Part shown: positions 21,192 to 63,689 of the stretch, piece by piece
Numbering within the stretch: the stretch's first letter is position 1
Layout of the letters: the number at the start of each line of letters is the position of its first letter
Assembly (NCBI RefSeq): GCF_004000215.1
Contig: NZ_RBVY01000003.1
Coordinates: 416,970-480,969 of the forward strand
Direction of reading: 5' to 3'
Length of the DNA stretch: 64,000 bases
Source: Nitratireductor alexandrii
GTDB lineage: Bacteria > Pseudomonadota > Alphaproteobacteria > Rhizobiales > Rhizobiaceae
Translations under genes and position numbers: made by a program
The notes under the pieces: model-generated
What the model was told of the DNA's origin: nothing
The model's input: only the letters and a program-made list of their open reading frames with translations
Database searches by the model: none

Positions 21192-22602
21192 GGCGCTTGG
21201 CCTGAAACCCGGCCTCGGCATCGCCGACGCGCGCGCCATGCATCCCGATGTCGAGATCGTCGACGCCCAGCCGCAAGCCGACCGCCGCCTGCTGGAAAGC
21301 CTCGCCGACTGGTGCGACCGCTACACGCCGCTCGTCGCCCTGGACGGAAGCGACGGGCTGTTTCTCGACATCACCGGCTGTGCTCATCTTTTCGGCAATG
21401 AAAAACGCATGCTGGATGACATTCTGTCCCGGCTTTTCCATCAGGGATTCGACGCCCGCGCCGGGCTCGGCGCCAGCCCCGGCATCGCCTGGGCGGCGGC
21501 GCGGTTCCTGAGCCCGGCGATCGTCCCGCCGGGTGAGGAGGGCGAAACCCTGGCGCCGCTGCCGCTCGCCGCGCTGCGCATCGCGCCGGCCGTCCGCGCC
21601 GGCCTGGAAAGCGTCGGGCTGAAGACGGCGGGCGCGATCATGGCGGCCCCGCGGGCGCCGCTGGCGCGCCGTTTCGGCGCCGCACTGCTGACCCGGCTCG
21701 ACCAGGCGCTGGACCGGGCCGAGGAAGCGATCACGCCGCGCCTGCCCGTGCCGCCGCTGTCGGTCGAGCGGCACCTGGCCGAACCGGTCGTGCTGGCCGA
21801 CGATATCGAGCGGCTCGTCGGCTTGCTCGCCGCATCGCTGCGCGCCGAGCTCGAACGGCGCGGGGAGGGCGCGCATGTGCTGCAGCTTGCCCTGTTCCGG
21901 GTCGACGGCGCCATGCAGCGTCTCGCCGTCGGCGCCGCGCGACCGCTGCGCGATCCGGCCCTGATCGAGCGCCTGTTCCGCGAAAGGCTCGCCGCGTTCG
22001 AGGATCGGCTCGATGCCGGCTGCGGCTTCGAGCTGGTCCGGCTTTCGGTCTTGAAGGCCGCGCCCTTCGCGCTCGAGCAGACCGACCTTGCCGGCGCGAG
22101 CACGGCGGCCGGGGAGGATCTGGCGCTTTTTACCGACCGGGTCCGCGCCCGGCTCGGCGAAACGGCGCTGCTGCGGCCGGTTCTCGTCGAAAGCCACCGT
22201 CCCGAACGCGCCGCCGCCTTTGTCGCCGCCGAAATGCCGGAAGGTCGGGACGGCAGGGCGCGGCCCGACAACTCCGCTCCCGATCCGGCCGGGACGGTGG
22301 ACATGGCGGACCGGCCGATCCGGCTTTTTCGGCATCCCGAGCCGGTCGATGTGGTCGCCGCCGAGGTACCCGAAGGGCCGCCGCTGCGGTTTCGCTGGCG
22401 CCGCGCCGTCCACCGTGTCGCCCGGGCCGAAGGGCCCGAGCGGATCGCCGCCGAATGGTGGCGCGACCCGCAAGATATGCCCACGCGCGACTATTTTCGT
22501 GTCGAGGACGATGACGGGCGCCGCTACTGGCTTTTCCGGCAGGGTTTTTACGGTGCCGCCGAGACCATGCCGCGTTGGTTCGTACACGGGGTTTTTGCAT
22601 GA
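20998..22602 (+). CDS. imuB: ImuB, Y-family polymerase-like protein
   Basis: Non-catalytic Y-family (DinB-like) protein of 534 residues that links DnaE2 to the beta clamp. The N terminus ILALWLPHLATDRIL is the family start. ALDGSDGLFLDITGCAHLFG occupies the place of the polymerase metal site, but the acidic pair of active Y-family enzymes is not conserved, as expected for ImuB. A helix-hairpin-helix region follows (AGLESVGLKTAGAIMAAP) and then a little-finger-like part. The C terminus ends YWLFRQGFYGAAETMPRWFVHGVFA. It overlaps imuA by 194 bases and dnaE2 by four (ATGA). Confidence 0.92.
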   Translation: MHPASAKSGQRILALWLPHLATDRILRQREGRSWRCGPPSRRPPLLVSRRENNAQRIAALDERAEALGLKPGLGIADARAMHPDVEIVDAQPQADRRLLESLADWCDRYTPLVALDGSDGLFLDITGCAHLFGNEKRMLDDILSRLFHQGFDARAGLGASPGIAWAAARFLSPAIVPPGEEGETLAPLPLAALRIAPAVRAGLESVGLKTAGAIMAAPRAPLARRFGAALLTRLDQALDRAEEAITPRLPVPPLSVERHLAEPVVLADDIERLVGLLAASLRAELERRGEGAHVLQLALFRVDGAMQRLAVGAARPLRDPALIERLFRERLAAFEDRLDAGCGFELVRLSVLKAAPFALEQTDLAGASTAAGEDLALFTDRVRARLGETALLRPVLVESHRPERAAAFVAAEMPEGRDGRARPDNSAPDPAGTVDMADRPIRLFRHPEPVDVVAAEVPEGPPLRFRWRRAVHRVARAEGPERIAAEWWRDPQDMPTRDYFRVEDDDGRRYWLFRQGFYGAAETMPRWFVHGVFA

Positions 22603-25600
22603 AATCCACCGCCCCGGCCTATGCCGAATTCGCCGTGCAATCGAATTTCTCCTTCCTGCGCGGCGCCTCGAAGCCGGAGGAACTGGTGGTGACGGCGAAG
22701 CATCTCGGCCATGACGCCATCGGGCTTGCCGACCGCAACACGGTGGCCGGCGTCGTGCGCGCCTGGAGCCAGTCGAAACATATCAAGCAAACGGCGACGA
22801 CCGGGCCGGGTAAACTTGCCTACCATCCCGGGTGCCGGCTGGTGTTCGCCGACACGACGCCGGATGTGCTTGCCTATCCGCAGGACCGCCGCGGCTGGGG
22901 CCATCTGTGCCGCCTGCTGAGCGAGGCCAATATGCGCGCCGAAAGCGAAAAGGGGGCGCCGCGGATCTATCGCGACGACTTGCTTTGCTGGGGCGAGCGC
23001 ATCTCGCTCGCCCTGATACCAAGGCTCGCCGGCGGCGAAACGGACGAGCTGGAGCTCCTGCGCTGTCTGCGCGACCGGTTCGGGACCGCCGTCCGGCTCG
23101 CCGTCGCGCCGACCTATGGCGGCAATGACCGGTTCCGCATCGAGCAGGCGGCGGCGCTGGCCGCCGCGGCCGGCGTGCCGCTGATGGCGATCAACGACGT
23201 GCTGTATCATATCCCCGACCGGCGGCCGCTGCAGGACGTGCTGACGGCGATCCGCCTCAACACGACGGTGGCGGAGGCCGGCTACGCGCTCGCCGCCCAT
23301 GCCGAGCGTCATCTGAAGCCGGCGGCGGAAATGGCGCGGCTGTTCCGGGGTTTTCCCGAAGCGCTCGCCGAAACCGTCAACTTCGCCGAAGGCCTCGCCT
23401 TCTCGCTCGGTGAGCTGAGCCACAACTATCCCGAGGAGACCACGACACCCGGCCTCGACCCCCAGGCCGAACTGGAAAGCCTCACCTGGCAGGGCGCGCG
23501 CAACCGCTACCCGCAGGGCCTTCCCGACGGGGTGGCGCAAAAAATCCGCCACGAATTGGAGATCGTCGCGCAGAAGGATTATGCGCGCTACTTCCTCACC
23601 GTGCGCGACATCGTCGCGCATGCCCGCGCCGAAAAGGGCATTTTGTGCCAGGGGCGGGGTTCGGCGGCCAATTCCGTCATCTGTTTCTGCCTGGGCATCA
23701 CCGAGGTCGACCCGGTTTTGATGATGGACGGTCTTTTCGAGCGCTTCATCTCCACCGAACGGGACGAACCGCCCGACATCGACGTCGATTTCGAACATGA
23801 GCGGCGTGACGAGGTCATCGCCTATATCTACCGGAAATACAGCCACACCCGCACCGCGCTCGCCGCCTCGGTCGTGACCTATCGCGGCCGTTCGGCGATG
23901 CGCGAGGTCGCCAGGGCGATGGGCCTGTCCGACGATGTGCAGTCGGCCCTTTCCGGTTCGATCTGGGGCTGGTCGTCCTCCCGGCTCAGCGCGCGCGAGG
24001 CCAGGGCCGGCGGACTGGCGGAAGGCGATCCGACGACGCGCCATGTCATGCAGCGCGCCAATGAGATCATCGGGTTCCCGCGCCACCTCTCCCAGCATGT
24101 CGGCGGTTTTGTCATCACCCGCGACCGGCTCGACGAGATCGTGCCGATCGTCAAGACGGCGATGGAGGAGCGCAAGATGGTCGAATGGGACAAGGACGAC
24201 CTCGACGCCGTCGGGCTGATCAAGGTCGACATTCTGGCGCTCGGCATGCTGTCGTGCCTGCGCCGCGCCTTCGACCTGCTCGAGGACCATTATCGCGAAC
24301 GCGACCGGTTCGGCCGCAGGCTGACGCTGGCGACGCTGCCAAAGGAGGATGCGCGCGTCTACGACATGATCTGCCGGGCCGACACGCTCGGCGTTTTCCA
24401 GATCGAGAGCCGCGCCCAGATGTCGATGCTGCCGCGGCTCAAGCCGCGCGAGTTCTACGACCTGGTGATCGAGGTGGCGATCGTGCGCCCCGGCCCGATC
24501 CAGGGCGACATGGTGCATCCTTATCTGCGCCGCCGCGAGGGTAAGGAGCCGGTCGACTATCCGAGCCCGCAAATGCGCCGCATCCTGAAAAAAACGCTCG
24601 GCGTGCCGCTGTTTCAGGAACAGGCGATGAAGATCGCCATCGACGCCGGCGGGTTTTCGCCCAGCGAGGCCGACCGGCTGCGCCGCGCCATGGCGACCTT
24701 CCGGCGCAATGGCACCATCCACGATTACAAGGACAGGCTGATTTCGGGCATGGTCAGCCGGGGCTACCGGCAGGATTTTGCCGAACGCTGTTTCAAACAG
24801 ATCGAGGGCTTCGGCGATTACGGTTTTCCCGAAAGCCACGCCGCCGCCTTCGCGCTGCTGGTCTATGCCTCGTGCTGGTTCAAGACCTTCTACCCGGACG
24901 TCTTTTGCGCCGCGATCCTGAATTCGCAGCCGATGGGATTTTACGCCCCGGCCCAGCTCGTGCACGACGCGCGCGAACACGGCATCGAGATCCGGCCGGT
25001 CGACATCAATGCCTCCGACTGGGAGTCGACCCTGGAAAAGGCGCCCTTCGATCCCGCCCTGATCGCCGCCCGGCATACGGAAATGGCCGGCGTCATCAAG
25101 AGCCGCCACGCGGTGCGGCTCGGTTTCAGCCGCGTCAAGGGGCTGGCCGAGGCGGCGATGCGGCAACTGGTGGACAAGCGGGGGGCGGGTTACGATTCCG
25201 TGCGCGACCTCTGGCTGCGGTCCGGCCTGCCCGCCGGCGTGATCGCCCGGCTGGCCGAGGCCGACGCCTTCGGCTCGCTCGGCCTTACCCGCCGCGATGC
25301 GCTGTGGGCGGCCAAGGCGCTCGACGACAAGAGCGCCGCCGAGCGCCTGCCGCTGTTCGACCGGTCCGTGCCGCGACTGCGCGACCGGGAGCCCGACATC
25401 GCGCTGCCGCCGATGCCGCCCGGCCAGCATATCGTGCACGACTACCGCACCCTAAGCCTGTCTTTAAAGGGGCACCCGCTCCAGTTCCTGCGCGCGCGCC
25501 TTGCGGCCGAGGGCGGCCTGCCCGCCATTCGACTTTCCACCGTGGCGAACGGAGCGCGCGTCAGCGTGGCCGGCCTCGCCTTGGTGCGCCAGCGCCCGGG

Positions 25601-25952
25601 CAAGGGCAACGTCATCTTCATCACCCTGGAGGACGAAGGCGCGATCGCCAATATCATCGTCTGGCCAAGGGTTTTTGAGCGTTACCGCCCGGTGGTGCTC
25701 AGCGCCCGGTTGATGCGGGTGCGCGGACGGCTGCAAGCGGCCTCCGGCGTCATTCACGTGGTCGCGGAAACCCTGGAGGACCTGACACCGTGGCTGGGCG
25801 CGCTGATGGCGGACGAGGCGCCCACGACATCGCATGGCAATGGCCCGCGAGCCCTGCCGCTGCCGGACCGCGCCCCTGCCGCCATCCTCAACGACAAGGA
25901 TCTGGCCGAACGGACCGGCAAGGTGATGCCGAAAGGCCGCAACTTTCATTAA
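22599..25952 (+). CDS. dnaE2: error-prone DNA polymerase DnaE2 (ImuC)
   Basis: C-family polymerase for lesion bypass, SOS-induced with imuA and imuB. The 1117-residue product starts with a PHP domain (AYAEFAVQSNFSFLRGASKPEEL, GLADRNTVAG), then the polymerase palm with the catalytic Asp pair in PDIDVDFEHERRDEV, fingers with LAASVVTYRGRSAMREV, VRPGPIQGDMVHPYL, and a late OB-fold (ISVAGL-type segment, LRVRGRLQAASGVIHVVAE). The length is usual for DnaE2 and shorter than replicative DnaE. ATG at 22599 overlaps the imuB stop. Nothing of note follows for ~160 bases. Confidence 0.96.
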   Translation: MKSTAPAYAEFAVQSNFSFLRGASKPEELVVTAKHLGHDAIGLADRNTVAGVVRAWSQSKHIKQTATTGPGKLAYHPGCRLVFADTTPDVLAYPQDRRGWGHLCRLLSEANMRAESEKGAPRIYRDDLLCWGERISLALIPRLAGGETDELELLRCLRDRFGTAVRLAVAPTYGGNDRFRIEQAAALAAAAGVPLMAINDVLYHIPDRRPLQDVLTAIRLNTTVAEAGYALAAHAERHLKPAAEMARLFRGFPEALAETVNFAEGLAFSLGELSHNYPEETTTPGLDPQAELESLTWQGARNRYPQGLPDGVAQKIRHELEIVAQKDYARYFLTVRDIVAHARAEKGILCQGRGSAANSVICFCLGITEVDPVLMMDGLFERFISTERDEPPDIDVDFEHERRDEVIAYIYRKYSHTRTALAASVVTYRGRSAMREVARAMGLSDDVQSALSGSIWGWSSSRLSAREARAGGLAEGDPTTRHVMQRANEIIGFPRHLSQHVGGFVITRDRLDEIVPIVKTAMEERKMVEWDKDDLDAVGLIKVDILALGMLSCLRRAFDLLEDHYRERDRFGRRLTLATLPKEDARVYDMICRADTLGVFQIESRAQMSMLPRLKPREFYDLVIEVAIVRPGPIQGDMVHPYLRRREGKEPVDYPSPQMRRILKKTLGVPLFQEQAMKIAIDAGGFSPSEADRLRRAMATFRRNGTIHDYKDRLISGMVSRGYRQDFAERCFKQIEGFGDYGFPESHAAAFALLVYASCWFKTFYPDVFCAAILNSQPMGFYAPAQLVHDAREHGIEIRPVDINASDWESTLEKAPFDPALIAARHTEMAGVIKSRHAVRLGFSRVKGLAEAAMRQLVDKRGAGYDSVRDLWLRSGLPAGVIARLAEADAFGSLGLTRRDALWAAKALDDKSAAERLPLFDRSVPRLRDREPDIALPPMPPGQHIVHDYRTLSLSLKGHPLQFLRARLAAEGGLPAIRLSTVANGARVSVAGLALVRQRPGKGNVIFITLEDEGAIANIIVWPRVFERYRPVVLSARLMRVRGRLQAASGVIHVVAETLEDLTPWLGALMADEAPTTSHGNGPRALPLPDRAPAAILNDKDLAERTGKVMPKGRNFH

Positions 25953-30603: not shown

Positions 30604-31479
30604 TTAATGGCTTTGCAGGCGGCGGCAAACCTCGTCGAGCTGCTCCAGCGTCTTGTAATCGATCCGGATCTGGCCGCCTGTGTCGCGATGCTGGATCGAG
30701 ACGGAAAGCCCGGTCACGTCCGACAAGAGCTTTTCGAGCGCCTGCGTGTCGGCATCCTTTTGCGGCGGCGTCCGATCGTTTTTCGCGCTCTTCGTTTCCG
30801 GCGCCCGCGGCGCCTGGGCAAGCAGTTCCGCCTGGCGCACGGACAGGCCTTCCTCGACGATTTTCTTGGCCAGGCCCGTCGGATCCTCGGCGGTGACCAG
30901 CGTGCGCCCGTGTCCGGCCGAAAGCGACCCATTAACCAGCATGTCGCGGATCACCGGCGGCAGTTTCAAGAGCCGCAGCGTGTTGGCGACATGGCTGCGG
31001 CTCTTGCCGATGATGCGCGCCAGATCGGCCTGCGTATATTGATGGTCGTCGACGAGCTGCTGATAGCCGGCCGCTTCCTCGACCGGGTTGAGGTCGGCGC
31101 GCTGAACATTCTCGATGATCGCCAATTCCAGCGCGACCCGGTCGTCGACGTCGCGGATAATCACCGGCACCTTGGAAAGGTTGGCGCGCTGCGCCGCGCG
31201 CCAGCGGCGCTCGCCGGCAATGATCTCGAAACGGCCGTCCGCGGCCGGCCGCACGACGATCGGCTGCACGATGCCGTGTTCGCGGATCGACTGCGACAGG
31301 TCGCCGAGCTCCTCCTCCAGGAACTGGCGACGCGGGTTGCGCGGATTGGCGAGCAGGAACTCGATCGGCACGTCCTGGTCCGCGGGCGGGGCGTCCTGCG
31401 CCGCGGCCGGCTTGTCCATGTCGCCGATCAGAGCGGCCAGGCCGCGCCCGAGCCGGCGCCGCGATTGTTCCTCGGTCAT
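30604..31479 (-). CDS. parB: chromosome partitioning protein ParB
   Basis: CTP-dependent DNA clamp that loads at parS sites and partners ParA to move the origin region. The 291-residue product has the N-terminal RLGRGLAALIGD, the CTP-binding parts REHGIVQPIVVRP and GERRWRAAQRA, ENVQRADLNPVEEAAGYQQL, a helix-turn-helix (TQADLARIIGKSRSHVANTLRLLKLP) that reads parS, and a C-terminal dimer domain after an Ala/Pro/Lys linker. It follows parA by 39 bases on the same strand; four parS sites lie 1.4-3.5 kb upstream. Confidence 0.97.
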   Translation of the reverse strand: MTEEQSRRRLGRGLAALIGDMDKPAAAQDAPPADQDVPIEFLLANPRNPRRQFLEEELGDLSQSIREHGIVQPIVVRPAADGRFEIIAGERRWRAAQRANLSKVPVIIRDVDDRVALELAIIENVQRADLNPVEEAAGYQQLVDDHQYTQADLARIIGKSRSHVANTLRLLKLPPVIRDMLVNGSLSAGHGRTLVTAEDPTGLAKKIVEEGLSVRQAELLAQAPRAPETKSAKNDRTPPQKDADTQALEKLLSDVTGLSVSIQHRDTGGQIRIDYKTLEQLDEVCRRLQSH

Positions 31480-31518: not shown

Positions 31519-32316
31519 CTACGCGGCCCGCAGGCGCCGTTCGCGTCGGATCACCTCCGACGCAAGCTGCAGATAGGCCTGGCTACCGGTGCATTTGAGA
31601 TCGTAGAGAATCGCCGGCTTGCCATGCGAGGGGGCTTCCGACACCCGCACATTGCGCGGGATCACCGTTTGATAGACCGCCTCGCCCATATAGGCGCGCA
31701 CATCGTCGACCACCTGATTGGCGAGATTGTTGCGCCCGTCGAACATCGTCAGCACGATGCCCTGGATCGTCAGGCCCGGATTGATCCCGGCGCGCACCTG
31801 CTCGACGGTCTCCAAAAGCTGGCTCAGCCCCTCCAGGGCGAAAAACTCGCATTGAAGCGGCACAAGCACCGAATCGGCGGCCGCCATCGCATTGATCGTC
31901 AGGAGGTTGAGCGACGGCGGGCAATCGACCAGCACGTAGGAGAATCGGTTTTCGCCCTCCGACATCGGCCGCAGCGCGTTGCGCAGGCGCAGCGCCCGAT
32001 CCGGCAGGCCGGAAATCTCCATCTCGACGCCGAGCAGGTCCAGCGTCGAGGGCACGATCGACAATTGCGGCACCGCGGTCTGCATCGCAGCCTCGCCGAT
32101 CGAGGCCTCGCCGACAAGCACGTCGTAGGACGACAAGGTCCTGTCGCGGCGCTCGATGCCAAGCCCGGTGCTGGCATTGCCCTGCGGATCGAGATCGACG
32201 ATCAGCACGCTTTCGCCGATCGCCGCCAGGGCGGTCGCCAGATTGATCGCGGTGGTCGTCTTGCCGACGCCGCCCTTTTGGTTGGCGATTGTGATGATGC
32301 GTGTCGCGCTGGTCAT
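31519..32316 (-). CDS. parA: chromosome partitioning ATPase ParA
   Basis: Walker-type ATPase that forms a nucleoid-bound gradient followed by ParB-parS complexes. The 265-residue product carries the deviant Walker A NQKGGVGKTTTAINL (Lys14 and Lys19), the A' motif VLIVDLDPQGNAS, and Walker B YVLVDCPPSLNLLT. It has no N-terminal HTH, so it is the chromosomal Soj type, not a plasmid RepA/ParA. ATG at 32316 is chosen over a TTG four codons upstream. It lies 30 bases after rsmG in a rsmG-parA-parB unit. Confidence 0.97.
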   Translation of the reverse strand: MTSATRIITIANQKGGVGKTTTAINLATALAAIGESVLIVDLDPQGNASTGLGIERRDRTLSSYDVLVGEASIGEAAMQTAVPQLSIVPSTLDLLGVEMEISGLPDRALRLRNALRPMSEGENRFSYVLVDCPPSLNLLTINAMAAADSVLVPLQCEFFALEGLSQLLETVEQVRAGINPGLTIQGIVLTMFDGRNNLANQVVDDVRAYMGEAVYQTVIPRNVRVSEAPSHGKPAILYDLKCTGSQAYLQLASEVIRRERRLRAA

Positions 32317-32346
32317 GTCTGTCCGCAATCCCTGTGCCGCGACATG

Positions 32347-32979
32347 CTATTTCCGCGCGGCTTTGCTGATCTCGAGGACCACACTGTCGTCATCGACAGA
32401 ACTGCGGTGTTGTACCAGATCGAGATTCCAGGTGTCATGCGCTAGTTTGATTTCTTCACCGCTATCGCGGCCTTTCGCAAACAGCGCGCGTGTTCCGGCC
32501 GCCAGCCACGGTTCGGTCAGGGCCAACAGGCGCGGCAGCGGCGCCAGCGCCCGCGCCGTGACGATTTCGGGAACGGACGAGGATTGCACCACATCCTCGA
32601 TTCGGCGCGCCGCGATCACCGCCCGCGGCGCCAGTTCCGAGAGCGCATTTTGCAAGAACGCCGCCTTTTTGCGATTGCTCTCGACCAGTTTCACCGTCGC
32701 TTCGGCCCGGTCGTGAAGGAGAATCGCGATCACGGCGCCGGGAAATCCCCCGCCCGAACCGAGATCGGCCCATTGTCGTGCTGTCGGGGCGAGGCCGAGA
32801 AGTTGCGCGCTGTCGAGAATATGCCGGTGCCACAGGCTGTCGAGGGTCGACGGCGCGACGAGATTGATCCGCCGAGCCCACTTGCCGAAGATCGTTTCGA
32901 ACTGGCGCAGCCGCTCGAATGTTTCACGTGAAACGGGCCCCGCGACGCGGCACAAGGCCTGATAGTTCTCCTCGCTCAC
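32347..32979 (-). CDS. rsmG: 16S rRNA (guanine-527-N7)-methyltransferase RsmG
   Basis: SAM-dependent methylation of G527 in 16S rRNA; its loss gives low-level streptomycin resistance. The 210-residue product has the SAM loop [33 protein letters not shown], and [13 protein letters not shown]. The GTG start at 32979 overlaps the mnmG stop (GTGA), the usual coupling in this cluster. A parS site lies inside the gene near its 5' end, encoding VSRET. Confidence 0.95.
32920..32935. promoter_or_regulatory. parS site 1 (inside rsmG)
   Basis: TGTTTCACGTGAAACG is 15 of 16 bases identical to the palindromic consensus TGTTTCACGTGAAACA. ParB nucleation site embedded in the rsmG reading frame. Confidence 0.93.
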
Positions 32980-34919: not shown

Positions 34920-34935
34920 TGTTTCACGTGAAACG
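34920..34935. promoter_or_regulatory. parS site 2 (mnmE-mnmG gap)
   Basis: TGTTTCACGTGAAACG, one base from the parS consensus, 69 bases upstream of the mnmG start. Confidence 0.93.
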
Positions 34936-34957: not shown

Positions 34958-34973
34958 TGTTTCACGTGAATCA
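34958..34973. promoter_or_regulatory. parS site 3 (mnmE-mnmG gap)
   Basis: TGTTTCACGTGAATCA: perfect left half, one change (A to T) in the right half. It lies 22 bases from site 2. Confidence 0.85.
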
Positions 34974-35004: not shown

Positions 35005-35020
35005 TGTTTCACGTGAATCA
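35005..35020. promoter_or_regulatory. parS site 4 (overlaps the mnmE stop)
   Basis: TGTTTCACGTGAATCA, same variant as site 3. Its last three bases, TCA, are the mnmE stop codon on the minus strand. Confidence 0.85.
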
Positions 35021-39940: not shown

Positions 39941-40477
39941 TCAGAACGGCTTGACGACAACCAGGATCACGATCGCGATCATCAACACCGTCGGAACTTC
40001 ATTCATCAGCCGCCAGAACCGCGCCGGCCGCTGATTGCGGTCTTCGGCGAAACGGCGAACGGCAGCCGAAAAATAGCCATGCGCCCCCGACATCGCAAGA
40101 ACCAGTGCAATCTTTGCGTGCAGCCAGCCACCCGAAAACCCGAAACCCTGCCAGGCGAGCCAAAGGCCGAGCGCCCAACTCACCATCATCGCCGGGTTGA
40201 TGATCGCCCGCAAAAGCCGGCGTTCCATCACCTTGAACGTCTCCGACTGCGCAGAACCGGGCTCAGCCGCGCAATGATAGACGAACAGCCGCGGCAGGTA
40301 GAGCATGCCCGCCATCCACGATATCACCGCCAGCACGTGGACCGCCTTGATCCACAGATAATAGGCCGACAGGTCGAACGCAAACAGCGCCAGCACCGCG
40401 AGCGCCAGAACGCCCAGCGCGACGATCGCCCTGACGAGCGGGCTCGCCTTTGCCGGCGATGGCGCCCCGACGCTCAT
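39941..40477 (-). CDS. hemJ: protoporphyrinogen oxidase HemJ
   Basis: Membrane enzyme that oxidises protoporphyrinogen IX to protoporphyrin IX in heme synthesis, the usual form in alphaproteobacteria lacking HemG/HemY. The 178-residue product has four to five transmembrane helices and the family marks [30 protein letters not shown] (with the essential His) and [19 protein letters not shown]. About 28 residues precede the first conserved helix pair. Its ATG overlaps the hemE stop by four bases, so HemE and HemJ are made together. Confidence 0.94.
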
Positions 40478-41502
40478 GCCCGCGCCCGAACCCGTGCGAT
40501 CATCGCCTCGACATGGGCGATCGGCGTCTGCGGCGTGATGCCGTGCCCGAGATTGAAGATCAGCGGCCCGTCCGACAAGCGCTCGAGAATGCGGTCGACC
40601 CCCCTGTCGAGCGCGTCTCCGCCGGCCACCAGCCGCAGCGGATCGAGATTGCCCTGCACGGCGCCGTCCGCCTGCAGCCGTCGCGCCTGGGCAAGCGGCA
40701 CCGTCCAGTCCAGGCCCAGCCCGTCGACGCCGGTCGCGGCGCGATAGTCGTCGAAACGGCTGCCCGCGCCCTTCGGAAAGCCGATCACCGGAATGTCGGG
40801 ATAACGTTCCTTGATCGTCGCCACCATCCGCGCCACCGGCTTCACGCAGAACCGGGTAAACTCCTCCTCGCCGAGCACCCCCGCCCAGGAATCGAATATC
40901 TGCACCGTATCGGCGCCGGCCTCGATCTGGCGCAGCAGATAATCGGCCGAGATATCGGCCAACAGGCCGATCAGCCGGTCCATGGCTTCCGGTTCGCTGT
41001 AGGCAAACAACCGCGCCGGCGCCTGGTCGGGCGTGCCGTGACCGGCAATCATATAGGTCGCGACCGTCCATGGCGCGCCGCAAAATCCGATCAGCGCGGT
41101 TTCGGCCGGCAGGGATTGCCGCAGACGCGACACGGTTTCGTAGACCGGCGCCAGCCTGTGGTGAAAATCGGAGACGTCCAGATCGGCGATCTCCGACACG
41201 CCGATCGGCGTCATCAGCGGTCCTCTGCCTTCCTCGAAGCGCAAATCGCGGCCGAGCGCATGCGGGACGACCAAAATGTCGGAAAACAGGATCGATGCGT
41301 CGAAACCGAACCGCCGGATCGGCTGCATCGTCACTTCAACCGCCAGATCGGGATTGTAGCACAGATCGAGAAAGCTCCCGGCTTCCTTCCGCACCTGTCT
41401 GTATTCAGGCAGGTAGCGTCCGGCCTGCCGCATCATCCAGAGCGGCGGCGGGGAGAGGCTTTCGCCTTTCAGGACACGTATCAGCCGTCGGTCACTGCCC
41501 AT
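40474..41502 (-). CDS. hemE: uroporphyrinogen decarboxylase
   Basis: Removes four carboxyl groups from uroporphyrinogen III to give coproporphyrinogen III. The 342-residue product has [17 protein letters not shown] (active-site Arg pair), [14 protein letters not shown], the [14 protein letters not shown] loop, IFDSWAG and [16 protein letters not shown] lies seven bases before the ATG. The gene borders the likely replication origin, as hemE does in Caulobacter and in Sinorhizobium as I recall. Confidence 0.97.
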
Positions 41503-41697
41503 GCGGAATCCTTCCAGTTACGGACTCACTTAAAGAAAGAGATTCGAGAAGGGAACTTTTTGTTCTTCTATGACTCTGTCGAAAACGGGGATTGGCGCCA
41601 GTCCCCAGATTGTCGCGGCATGCGCATGCTCCGGCACGCAAACCGCCTTGTTCCCTAGGCCTTGTTCATTATGGGGAAAATCAAAAATACCGCTTTG

Positions 41698-41715
41698 TTT
41701 TCAATATATTGAAAA
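41698..41715. repeat. 18-bp AT-rich palindrome in the oriC candidate
   Basis: TTTTCAATATATTGAAAA, perfect. Possible unwinding element or protein site (for example IHF- or regulator-bound). Confidence 0.6.
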
Positions 41716-41812
41716 AGAGACGATTTTCTCTCGAATTCAGCCTCGGCTGAAAAACCGGCTTGGCCCACCAAGTTCTCAACAGCCTGGCAAACCTGTCCCG
41801 TCCGCCCTGGAT

Positions 41813-41821
41813 TGTGGATGA
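41813..41821 (-). promoter_or_regulatory. DnaA box 2
   Basis: TGTGGATGA, reading TCATCCACA on the minus strand: eight of nine matches to TTATCCACA. A GANTC site (41820-41824) overlaps its edge. Confidence 0.6.
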
Positions 41822-41870
41822 CTCGACATCTGATACAGTCGCCTCCGCCGGGCCGGTGTCAGGGTCGGGC

Positions 41871-41879
41871 TTATCCACA
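41871..41879 (+). promoter_or_regulatory. DnaA box 1
   Basis: TTATCCACA, perfect consensus, 27 bases before the ppsR start codon. Confidence 0.8.
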
Positions 41880-41905
41880 CTCCCCAACAGGACCGTCGTG
41901 CCCCT

Positions 41906-42727
41906 GTGAACAGACCCCAGAGTTTTTTCCATCTCCATCTGATATCCGACGCGACCGGCGAGACGCTGCTGGCGGCCGGCCGTGCCGCGTCCGCGCAATA
42001 CAAGGATGCCCGCGCCGTCGAGCACATCTATCCGCTGATACGCACCGAACGGCAGCTCCAGGCGGTGCTGGACGAGATCGACGCCGAACCGGGCATCGTC
42101 CTTTATACGGTCGTCGACGAGACGCTGGCGCGCACCATCGACGAACGCTGCGCGGCGATGGGCCTGCCATGCGTGTCCGTGCTCGAGCCGGTCCTGACCG
42201 TGTTCCAGTCCTATCTCGGCGCGCCGGCCGGCCGGCGGGTCGGCGCCCAGCACGCGCTCGACGCGGACTATTTTAGGCGCATCGACGCGCTGAACTTCAC
42301 CATGGATCATGATGACGGCCAGCTTCCCGCCGACATCGAAGAAGCCGATATCGTGCTGGTGGGCATCTCGCGCACCTCCAAGACGCCGACCAGCATCTAT
42401 CTGGCCAATCGTGGCATCAAGACCGCGAATGTCCCGATCGTGCCGGGCGTTCCGGTACCCGAGGCCCTGTCGCAGGCGAAAAAGCCGCTGATCGTCGGCC
42501 TGGTCGCTTCGGCCGAGCGCATATCGCAGGTGCGCCAGCATCGCATTCTGGGGGCGACGGCCGGTTTTGATTCCGAATCTTATGCCGACCGCGCCCATAT
42601 CGTTCAGGAATTGTCCTATGCCCGCCAGATCTGCACCCGCAATGGCTGGCCGACGATCGACGTCAGCCGCCGCTCGATCGAGGAAACCGCCGCCGCCATT
42701 CTTGCGCTGCGCGGCAGAAGCCGTTAG
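41906..42727 (+). CDS. ppsR: pyruvate, water dikinase / PPDK regulatory protein (DUF299)
   Basis: Bifunctional ADP-dependent kinase and Pi-dependent phosphorylase that switches PEP synthetase or pyruvate phosphate dikinase off and on. The 273-residue product starts [15 protein letters not shown], has the nucleotide loop [29 protein letters not shown] and the C-terminal [11 protein letters not shown]. The GTG start at 41906 is imposed by the family start; the AGGA upstream is 13 bases away, so initiation may be weak. It begins at the edge of the oriC candidate and is followed by maf after nine bases. Confidence 0.93.

Positions 42728-60941: not shown

Positions 60942-63689
<2,748 letters not shown>

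Follow-up and report, generated by a model that had tools for sequence, protein, structure and literature searches.

A candidate chromosomal replication origin between hemE and ppsR in Nitratireductor alexandrii and a putative unwinding unit on its hemE side

The hemE-ppsR locus and its neighbors

The window analyzed here is the whole stretch of 64,000 nucleotides at C23:416970-480969 in the genome of Nitratireductor alexandrii (4.87 Mb in 40 contigs), contig C23 itself being 571,573 bases long. The genes rho, hemJ, and hemE are followed in this stretch by a gap of 403 bases (41503-41905; 52.6% GC) and then by ppsR, maf, aroE, coaE, and dnaQ, with hemE on the minus strand and ppsR on the plus strand diverging from the gap, which lies at 458.5 kb on its contig. 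The first-pass annotation of this DNA had named hemE and ppsR as the borders, on which coordinates and profile matches agree, and had placed parAB and four parS sites 6.5-11 kb away, where they are indeed found (parS at 6.5-8.6 kb and parAB at 9.2-10.9 kb from the gap), with four one-mismatch parS sites in the window vs. 0.07 expected. The family PF03618, which the ppsR product matches, is the former DUF299.

40474-41502, minus strand: hemE, uroporphyrinogen decarboxylase, left border (TIGR01464, E 3.7e-124)
41503-41905, no strand: candidate oriC, the hemE-ppsR gap (flanking genes, DnaA boxes plus low GC, skew switch)
41906-42727, plus strand: ppsR, kinase/pyrophosphorylase of the COG1806/DUF299 type, right border (NF003742; PF03618, E 1.1e-90)
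31519-32328, minus strand: parA (PF13614 AAA_31)
30604-31479, minus strand: parB (PF02195, PF17762, PF23552)
32920-32935, plus strand: parS, one mismatch (site scan)
34920-34935, plus strand: parS, one mismatch (site scan)
34958-34973, plus strand: parS, one mismatch (site scan)
35005-35020, plus strand: parS, one mismatch (site scan)

Further out, gyrB lies ∼19 kb to the right of the candidate origin (60942-63683), and a DNA polymerase III alpha-type gene (22575-25952; 1125 aa), perhaps dnaE2, lies ∼16 kb to its left. A CcnA-like RNA in the gap was considered and dropped, as an Rfam scan of the gap returned no RNA at gathering score.

DnaA boxes in the gap and in related genomes

The perfect DnaA box and the one-mismatch box on the opposite strand are present exactly as first annotated, as are several inverted repeats, though these are short; the GANTC sites, previously counted as four, number five (at 41506, 41523, 41541, 41572, and 41820).

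41871-41879, plus strand: perfect DnaA box TTATCCACA, 35 bases before ppsR (box scan)
41813-41821, minus strand: DnaA box TCATCCACA, one mismatch, 93 bases before ppsR (box scan)
41773-41781, plus strand: degenerate DnaA box TTCTCAACA, two mismatches (box scan)
41672-41680, minus strand: degenerate DnaA box TTTTCCCCA, two mismatches (box scan)
41678-41727, no strand: AT-rich core, 76% A+T over 50 bases (composition scan)

Within the gap, just two boxes have one mismatch or none, accompanied by three two-mismatch boxes vs. 0.38 expected. The 64-kb window as a whole contains five boxes with at most one mismatch vs. 3.0 expected, a number reached by 19 of 100 shuffles and thus unremarkable in the window alone, so that their clustering in the gap is what stands out. 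Across C23, where 32 such boxes occur, 0.059% of the 571,171 windows of 403 bases matched the gap in boxes, 0.11% matched it in GANTC sites, and 0.65% had a GC as low as its 0.526, its AT content being above the genome average; the windows combining at least two DnaA boxes with a GC of ≤0.526 merge into a single place on the contig, 458446-458918, which is the gap. Perfect boxes are rare, with 4 in the 4.87-Mb genome vs. 24 for the backwards pattern; one is at the candidate origin, and around the other three (L001, L003, and L004; 3 kb each) no further box with one mismatch or none lies within 600 bases. A cluster of four or more DnaA boxes has been described as typical of such origins (PMC1914354), and the boxes in the gap are clustered, yet the strong ones among them are fewer than that.

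Conservation was followed in two partly overlapping sets of loci (L009 with L038 and L011 with L039, for example): a 30-locus set, which includes the locus itself and represents 30 of the 49 genomes in which ppsR was matched (61 were searched), and the best 80 of 162 named loci, 76 of which are labeled Mesorhizobium. Both genes were found in 110 of 110 loci, and the gap between them is 363-758 bases long (median 403; 390-410 in 89 of 110). In three Mesorhizobium loci (L042, L045, and L081), the gap is ∼750 rather than ∼403 bases, the ppsR-side boxes being kept and the extra length seemingly lying on the hemE side. The gaps of the 30-locus set hold 78 boxes with at most one mismatch vs. 3.0 in shuffled sequence (maximum 6); here, as for conserved blocks and CtrA sites, the shuffles kept base content alone and not dinucleotides. 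Allowing one mismatch at most, the minus-strand box ∼93 bases before ppsR recurs in 21 of 30 loci and in 77 of the best 80 of 162, and the plus-strand box ∼35 bases before ppsR does so in 10 of 30 and in 78 of 80, respectively. Scored by column conservation across 30 rows, the one-mismatch box at 41813-41821 is better conserved than the perfect box, ranking in the top 0.5% of gap 9-mers (rank 0.005), with the perfect box at 41871-41879 in the top 8%. The start of ppsR is overlapped by 11 of the 78 boxes, and an extra minus-strand DnaA-box-like 9-mer lies over the ppsR start codon in 10 of the 30 loci (L010, L016, L017, L021, L024, L025, L027, L028, L029, and L033).

The proven origin of Caulobacter and the Rickettsia origin both lie between hemE and COG1806 (PMC1914354), a border role for hemE that the first-pass annotation had also put forward for Caulobacter. 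On the basis of its flanking genes, its conserved anatomy, and the skew switch described below, the gap at 41503-41905 is in all likelihood the oriC of the main chromosome, a position that it very probably shares with the origins of related bacteria.

A candidate unwinding unit on the hemE side of the gap

Apart from the minus-strand box, the highest conservation among 9-mers of the gap is seen for those that begin at 41558-41573 and 41584-41586 (30 rows). Read on the minus strand, this block consists of CAATCCCCG, TTTTCGACA, GAGTCA, and TAG AAG AAC AAA AAG, an order that resembles the basal unwinding system (BUS) of Bacillus subtilis and other bacteria.

41556-41594, minus strand: candidate basal unwinding system, with two tandem degenerate boxes, a GANTC spacer, and five DnaA-trios towards hemE (conservation, phase test)
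41586-41594, minus strand: second tandem box-like 9-mer CAATCCCCG, four mismatches (reading; mismatches to a box across 32 loci are fewest at offsets +5 and +14 from GANTC)
41577-41585, minus strand: degenerate DnaA box TTTTCGACA, two mismatches, adjoining the trio spacer (box scan)
41572-41576, no strand: GANTC (CcrM-type) site within the box-to-trio spacer, 41571-41576 (site scan)
41556-41570, minus strand: five DnaA-trios, 5′-TAG AAG AAC AAA AAG-3′ (sequence reading)

Published criteria for DnaA-trios call for a box with at most three mismatches, a spacer no longer than 16 bases, and a minimum of three NAN trios with the consensus 3′-GAT-5′ (PMC8287927). In the gap, TTTTCGACA has two mismatches, the spacer is six bases long, and five trios follow, although such criteria are loose when applied to one sequence. 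The phase of the trios was scored locus by locus, using for each the best GANTC that lies 40-110 bases from hemE and counting T at the four trio-middle positions on the plus strand; this phase test is independent of the anchor of an earlier alignment, which forces part of the box and trio pattern. Full trio phase was found in 24 of 30 loci, in 66 of the best 80 of 162, and in 8 of 11 genomes without a ppsR match, where 12 of the 80 and 2 of the 11 loci had no GANTC in the 40-110 range and were scored as misses. The corresponding background is 5 of 1506 GANTC placements on C23 (0.33%) and, elsewhere in the same gaps, 1 of 215 (30-locus set), 18 of 626 (80), and 2 of 124 (11), i.e., 0.5-2.9%, the choice of the best GANTC per locus, which the background lacks, being a mild selection in favor of the pattern. 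The phase has a period of three bases, the mean score being 3.60 in phase vs. 1.00 and 2.57 at shifts of one and two bases. Of 32 loci, 30 have AAG or TAG as the first trio, and the fifth is not conserved. Over the same 32 loci, similarity to a DnaA box is best directly after the GANTC (3.59 mismatches) and again nine bases further on (4.34), with all other offsets at 5.25 or more; two minima nine bases apart are as expected of two tandem boxes. The boxes adjoining the trios are weak, averaging 3.6 mismatches across the 32 loci, and in one locus (L160) the adjoining box is perfect.

The motif TTCTTAGANTCNGT, read from this block, is matched exactly at 21 places across 61 whole genomes vs. 4 for the reversed control. 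The hemE gap contains 17 of them, one per genome and three in genomes without a ppsR match (G017, G023, and G030), and the four outside it are in G000 (C39), G004, and G039 (twice). The site of N. alexandrii is two bases off TTCTTAGANTCNGT, and at that tolerance the motif is not special on its own (53 matches with at most two mismatches vs. 65 for the control).

Taken together with its conservation, this arrangement suggests that the block at 41556-41594 is probably a DNA-opening (basal unwinding) unit with a built-in GANTC. A different division of labor, in which the gap is the origin but the AT-rich core (41678-41727) is where melting begins, and some other role, for example that of a CcrM/GcrA-gated hemE promoter, falls to the hemE-side block, is possible but rather unlikely. 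The AT-rich core that had been annotated is present and is the most AT-rich 50-base spot of the window (only 0.00003 of the window's 50-base positions are as AT-rich), which favors a start of melting there, as does the weakness of the trio-side boxes. Its sequence, however, is not conserved in relatives, its column conservation over 30 rows being no better than average (rank 0.77), in contrast to the trio block, which ranks with the best conserved parts of the gap. A coding cause of the 3-base phase is also unlikely, since in each of the six frames 14-25 of the 32 loci have a stop inside the 39-base element. For the hemE-side block itself, a promoter driven by CcrM and GcrA is a serious rival to the reading as an unwinding unit.

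Possible promoter function and genomes without a ppsR match

The whole gap could also be an ordinary divergent hemE/ppsR promoter region with promoter or operator elements as its conserved blocks, an explanation that we consider very improbable. Divergent genes do need promoters at such a place, and the GANTC of the block, which begins 51-99 bases before hemE in the 32 loci with full trio phase, is of a kind known from CcrM/GcrA-dependent promoters (PMC3667746). A crude scan, however, detected no sigma-70-like promoter in the gap, and promoter function leaves unexplained both the 3-base phase of the trio block and the switch in skew. It also fits poorly with the 12 of 61 genomes that have no ppsR match: hemE was found in 11 of these, maf lies 414-594 bases from hemE in 9 of the 11, and 23 boxes with at most one mismatch occur in the 11 hemE gaps vs. 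1.6 in shuffled sequence (maximum 5). Such boxes are absent from 5 of the 11 gaps, and a majority of the conserved blocks were no clearer in the ppsR-less genomes than in shuffled sequence. Promoters and an origin are not exclusive, and the region can be both; transcription of hemE matters for replication in Caulobacter (PMC8959179).

Strand asymmetry and the position of dnaA

On C23, the best skew breakpoint is at 460 kb (1-kb bins; block bootstrap 5-95%, 449-471 kb), next to the gap at 458.5 kb, and none of 1000 block permutations came up to its statistic. Over 100 kb to either side of the gap, the skew averages −0.032 on the left and 0.001 on the right, so the skew passes at the gap from negative to flat. 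The cumulative skew minimum lies away from the gap, both on C23 (531,554) and on the complete congeneric chromosome G002 (last sample, 4.74 Mb), because the arm to the right of the gap is nearly skew-free and the sum keeps falling slightly. Of the cumulative minimum at the gap that the first-pass annotation had proposed as a check, the switch itself stood, on C23 at the gap and on G002 with the best edge just after the sample that holds it, but the literal minimum did not. The broader claim that the window is the origin region is supported by position, by the skew switch, and by the conserved anatomy.

The G002 chromosome was sampled in 80 stretches of 20 kb, one every 60 kb (33% covered), with the gap at 3.852 Mb inside the 3.84-Mb sample. 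The best fit with two changes puts the origin edge between the 3.84- and 3.90-Mb samples (residual 0.607) and the terminus edge at 1.62 Mb, and none of 30 permutations was better than 0.846. This fit is not sharp, as edges at 4.02, 4.14, and 0 Mb give 0.611, 0.617, and 0.622, and an edge just before the sample with the gap (0.650) is no better than those next to dnaA. Inside the 3.84-Mb sample, the skew is −0.067 to the left of the gap and −0.015 to the right. On G002, the strand counts of the polar motif GGGNAGGG are 88/14 for the right arm and 11/80 for the left arm (79 of 80 samples, the gap sample excluded), and the lowest values of its running sum (−15) fall in the samples at 3.54-3.66 and 3.84 Mb; on C23, the motif is not polar to the right of the gap (8/6). 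A further chromosome, G036 (20 samples, half of the chromosome), shows near-zero skew over dnaA and the gap alike.

An origin beside dnaA, as in many bacteria, is scarcely credible and was rejected on boxes, GGGNAGGG polarity, and skew fit, for although dnaA lies far from the gap (on contig C40 in N. alexandrii and 0.75 Mb away in G002) and the G002 cumulative minimum is nearer to dnaA than to the gap, no 403-base window with two boxes occurs in the 113 kb of C40 around dnaA, the G002 edges next to dnaA (4.56 and 4.62 Mb) fit worse (residuals 0.639 and 0.654 vs. 0.607), and GGGNAGGG between the gap and dnaA is already of the right-arm type (17/4).

Comparison with known origins and control by CtrA and IHF

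The gap resembles Cori of Caulobacter crescentus in its flanking genes, its AT-rich stretch, its DnaA boxes, and a linked par operon (PMC1914354, PMC4468827). Cori differs in having five CtrA sites, an IHF site, and more DnaA boxes; CtrA TTAA-N7-TTAA sites, strict or loose, are absent from the gap, as are IHF sites by two consensus forms. A CtrA- or IHF-controlled origin of the Cori subtype was accordingly rejected. Strict CtrA sites occur in the gaps of 4 of 30 relatives (L015, L032, L035, and L036) vs. 0.30 expected (shuffle maximum 2), in 0 of the best 80 of 162, and in 2 of 11 ppsR-less gaps, a number that shuffles also reach (maximum 3).

The chromosomal oriC of Sinorhizobium meliloti is a related rhizobial origin reported to be free of CtrA motifs and of CtrA binding, and the action of CtrA on initiation in that group is there called indirect and unknown (PMC4433202). 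According to a review, CtrA sites in origins are not seen outside Caulobacter and possibly Rickettsia (PMC4468827), unlike a list that gives CtrA motifs for Wolbachia origins (PMC1914354). The CtrA-free gap of N. alexandrii agrees with the S. meliloti report and with the review (PMC4433202, PMC4468827). The hemE-adjacent origins of Wolbachia and Rickettsia are alike in having been assigned from hemE, a ∼400-base gap, boxes, and AT content, and they differ in the CtrA and IHF motifs of most strains and, in Wolbachia, in having COG1253 as the other border (PMC1914354).

The block at 41556-41594 shares with the BUS of B. subtilis and other bacteria the DnaA box or boxes, a short spacer, and repeats with a central A and the consensus 3′-GAT-5′ (PMC8287927). 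Its boxes are more degenerate than those of the known BUS, and its spacer holds a GANTC. The excerpt of PMC8287927, whose tree covers proteobacterial classes, describes no alphaproteobacterial example, and a literature search for a DnaA-trio with GANTC, CcrM, or Rhizobiales gave no DnaA-trio among the matches listed, from which absence from print is not claimed. No description of a Nitratireductor origin was found in the literature search, the genome paper on Nitratireductor thuwali showing none in its excerpted part (PMC10185800), and the gap may already be listed in automatic origin databases. The S. meliloti origin, for its part, is reported (Sibley 2006) to lie at hemE and to replicate autonomously.

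Proposed order of events and possible role of methylation

Judging from the layout of the sites, DnaA-ATP would first bind the pair of conserved boxes near ppsR, which point in opposite directions (41813-41821, minus; 41871-41879, plus), as well as the degenerate boxes in between, and DnaA would be handed to the tandem degenerate boxes at 41577-41594. A DnaA filament might then form on the minus-strand DnaA-trios from 41570 down to 41556, and the duplex would open beside hemE, leading to helicase loading, with ParB on the parS sites 6.5-8.6 kb away segregating the new copies. DnaA binding, the start of melting, and any effect of methylation in this scheme are what we infer from the sequence, and the flanking genes, the skew switch, the conserved boxes, and the conserved block of box, GANTC, and trios are observed. 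Placing oriC in this gap fixes the replication start for a Nitratireductor genome and yields a base-level prediction of where such origins open.

The position of the spacer GANTC raises a speculative hypothesis of a methylation gate. By analogy with Dam at the E. coli origin, hemi- or full methylation of a CcrM site between DnaA box and trios could conceivably tune the hand-over to the filament and license initiation in the Rhizobiaceae, whose origin gaps are mostly without CtrA sites, a proposal that we put forward as doubtful. If the GANTC in the spacer works in this manner, DNA methylation would be tied directly to initiation in a group where the action of CtrA is described as indirect and unknown (PMC4433202).

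GANTC sites are depleted in the 64-kb window (97 vs. 331 in shuffles), as if methylated sites were selected against and as expected with a CcrM-type methylase. The genome encodes GcrA and N6/N4 adenine methylases, one of them with an open frame of 387 codons, about the size of CcrM. A GANTC density as high as that of the gap is reached over 403 bases in three places on C23, the gap among them. The densest GANTC cluster of the contig, with up to seven sites in 403 bases, is at C23:353238-354030, outside the window and away from the candidate origin.
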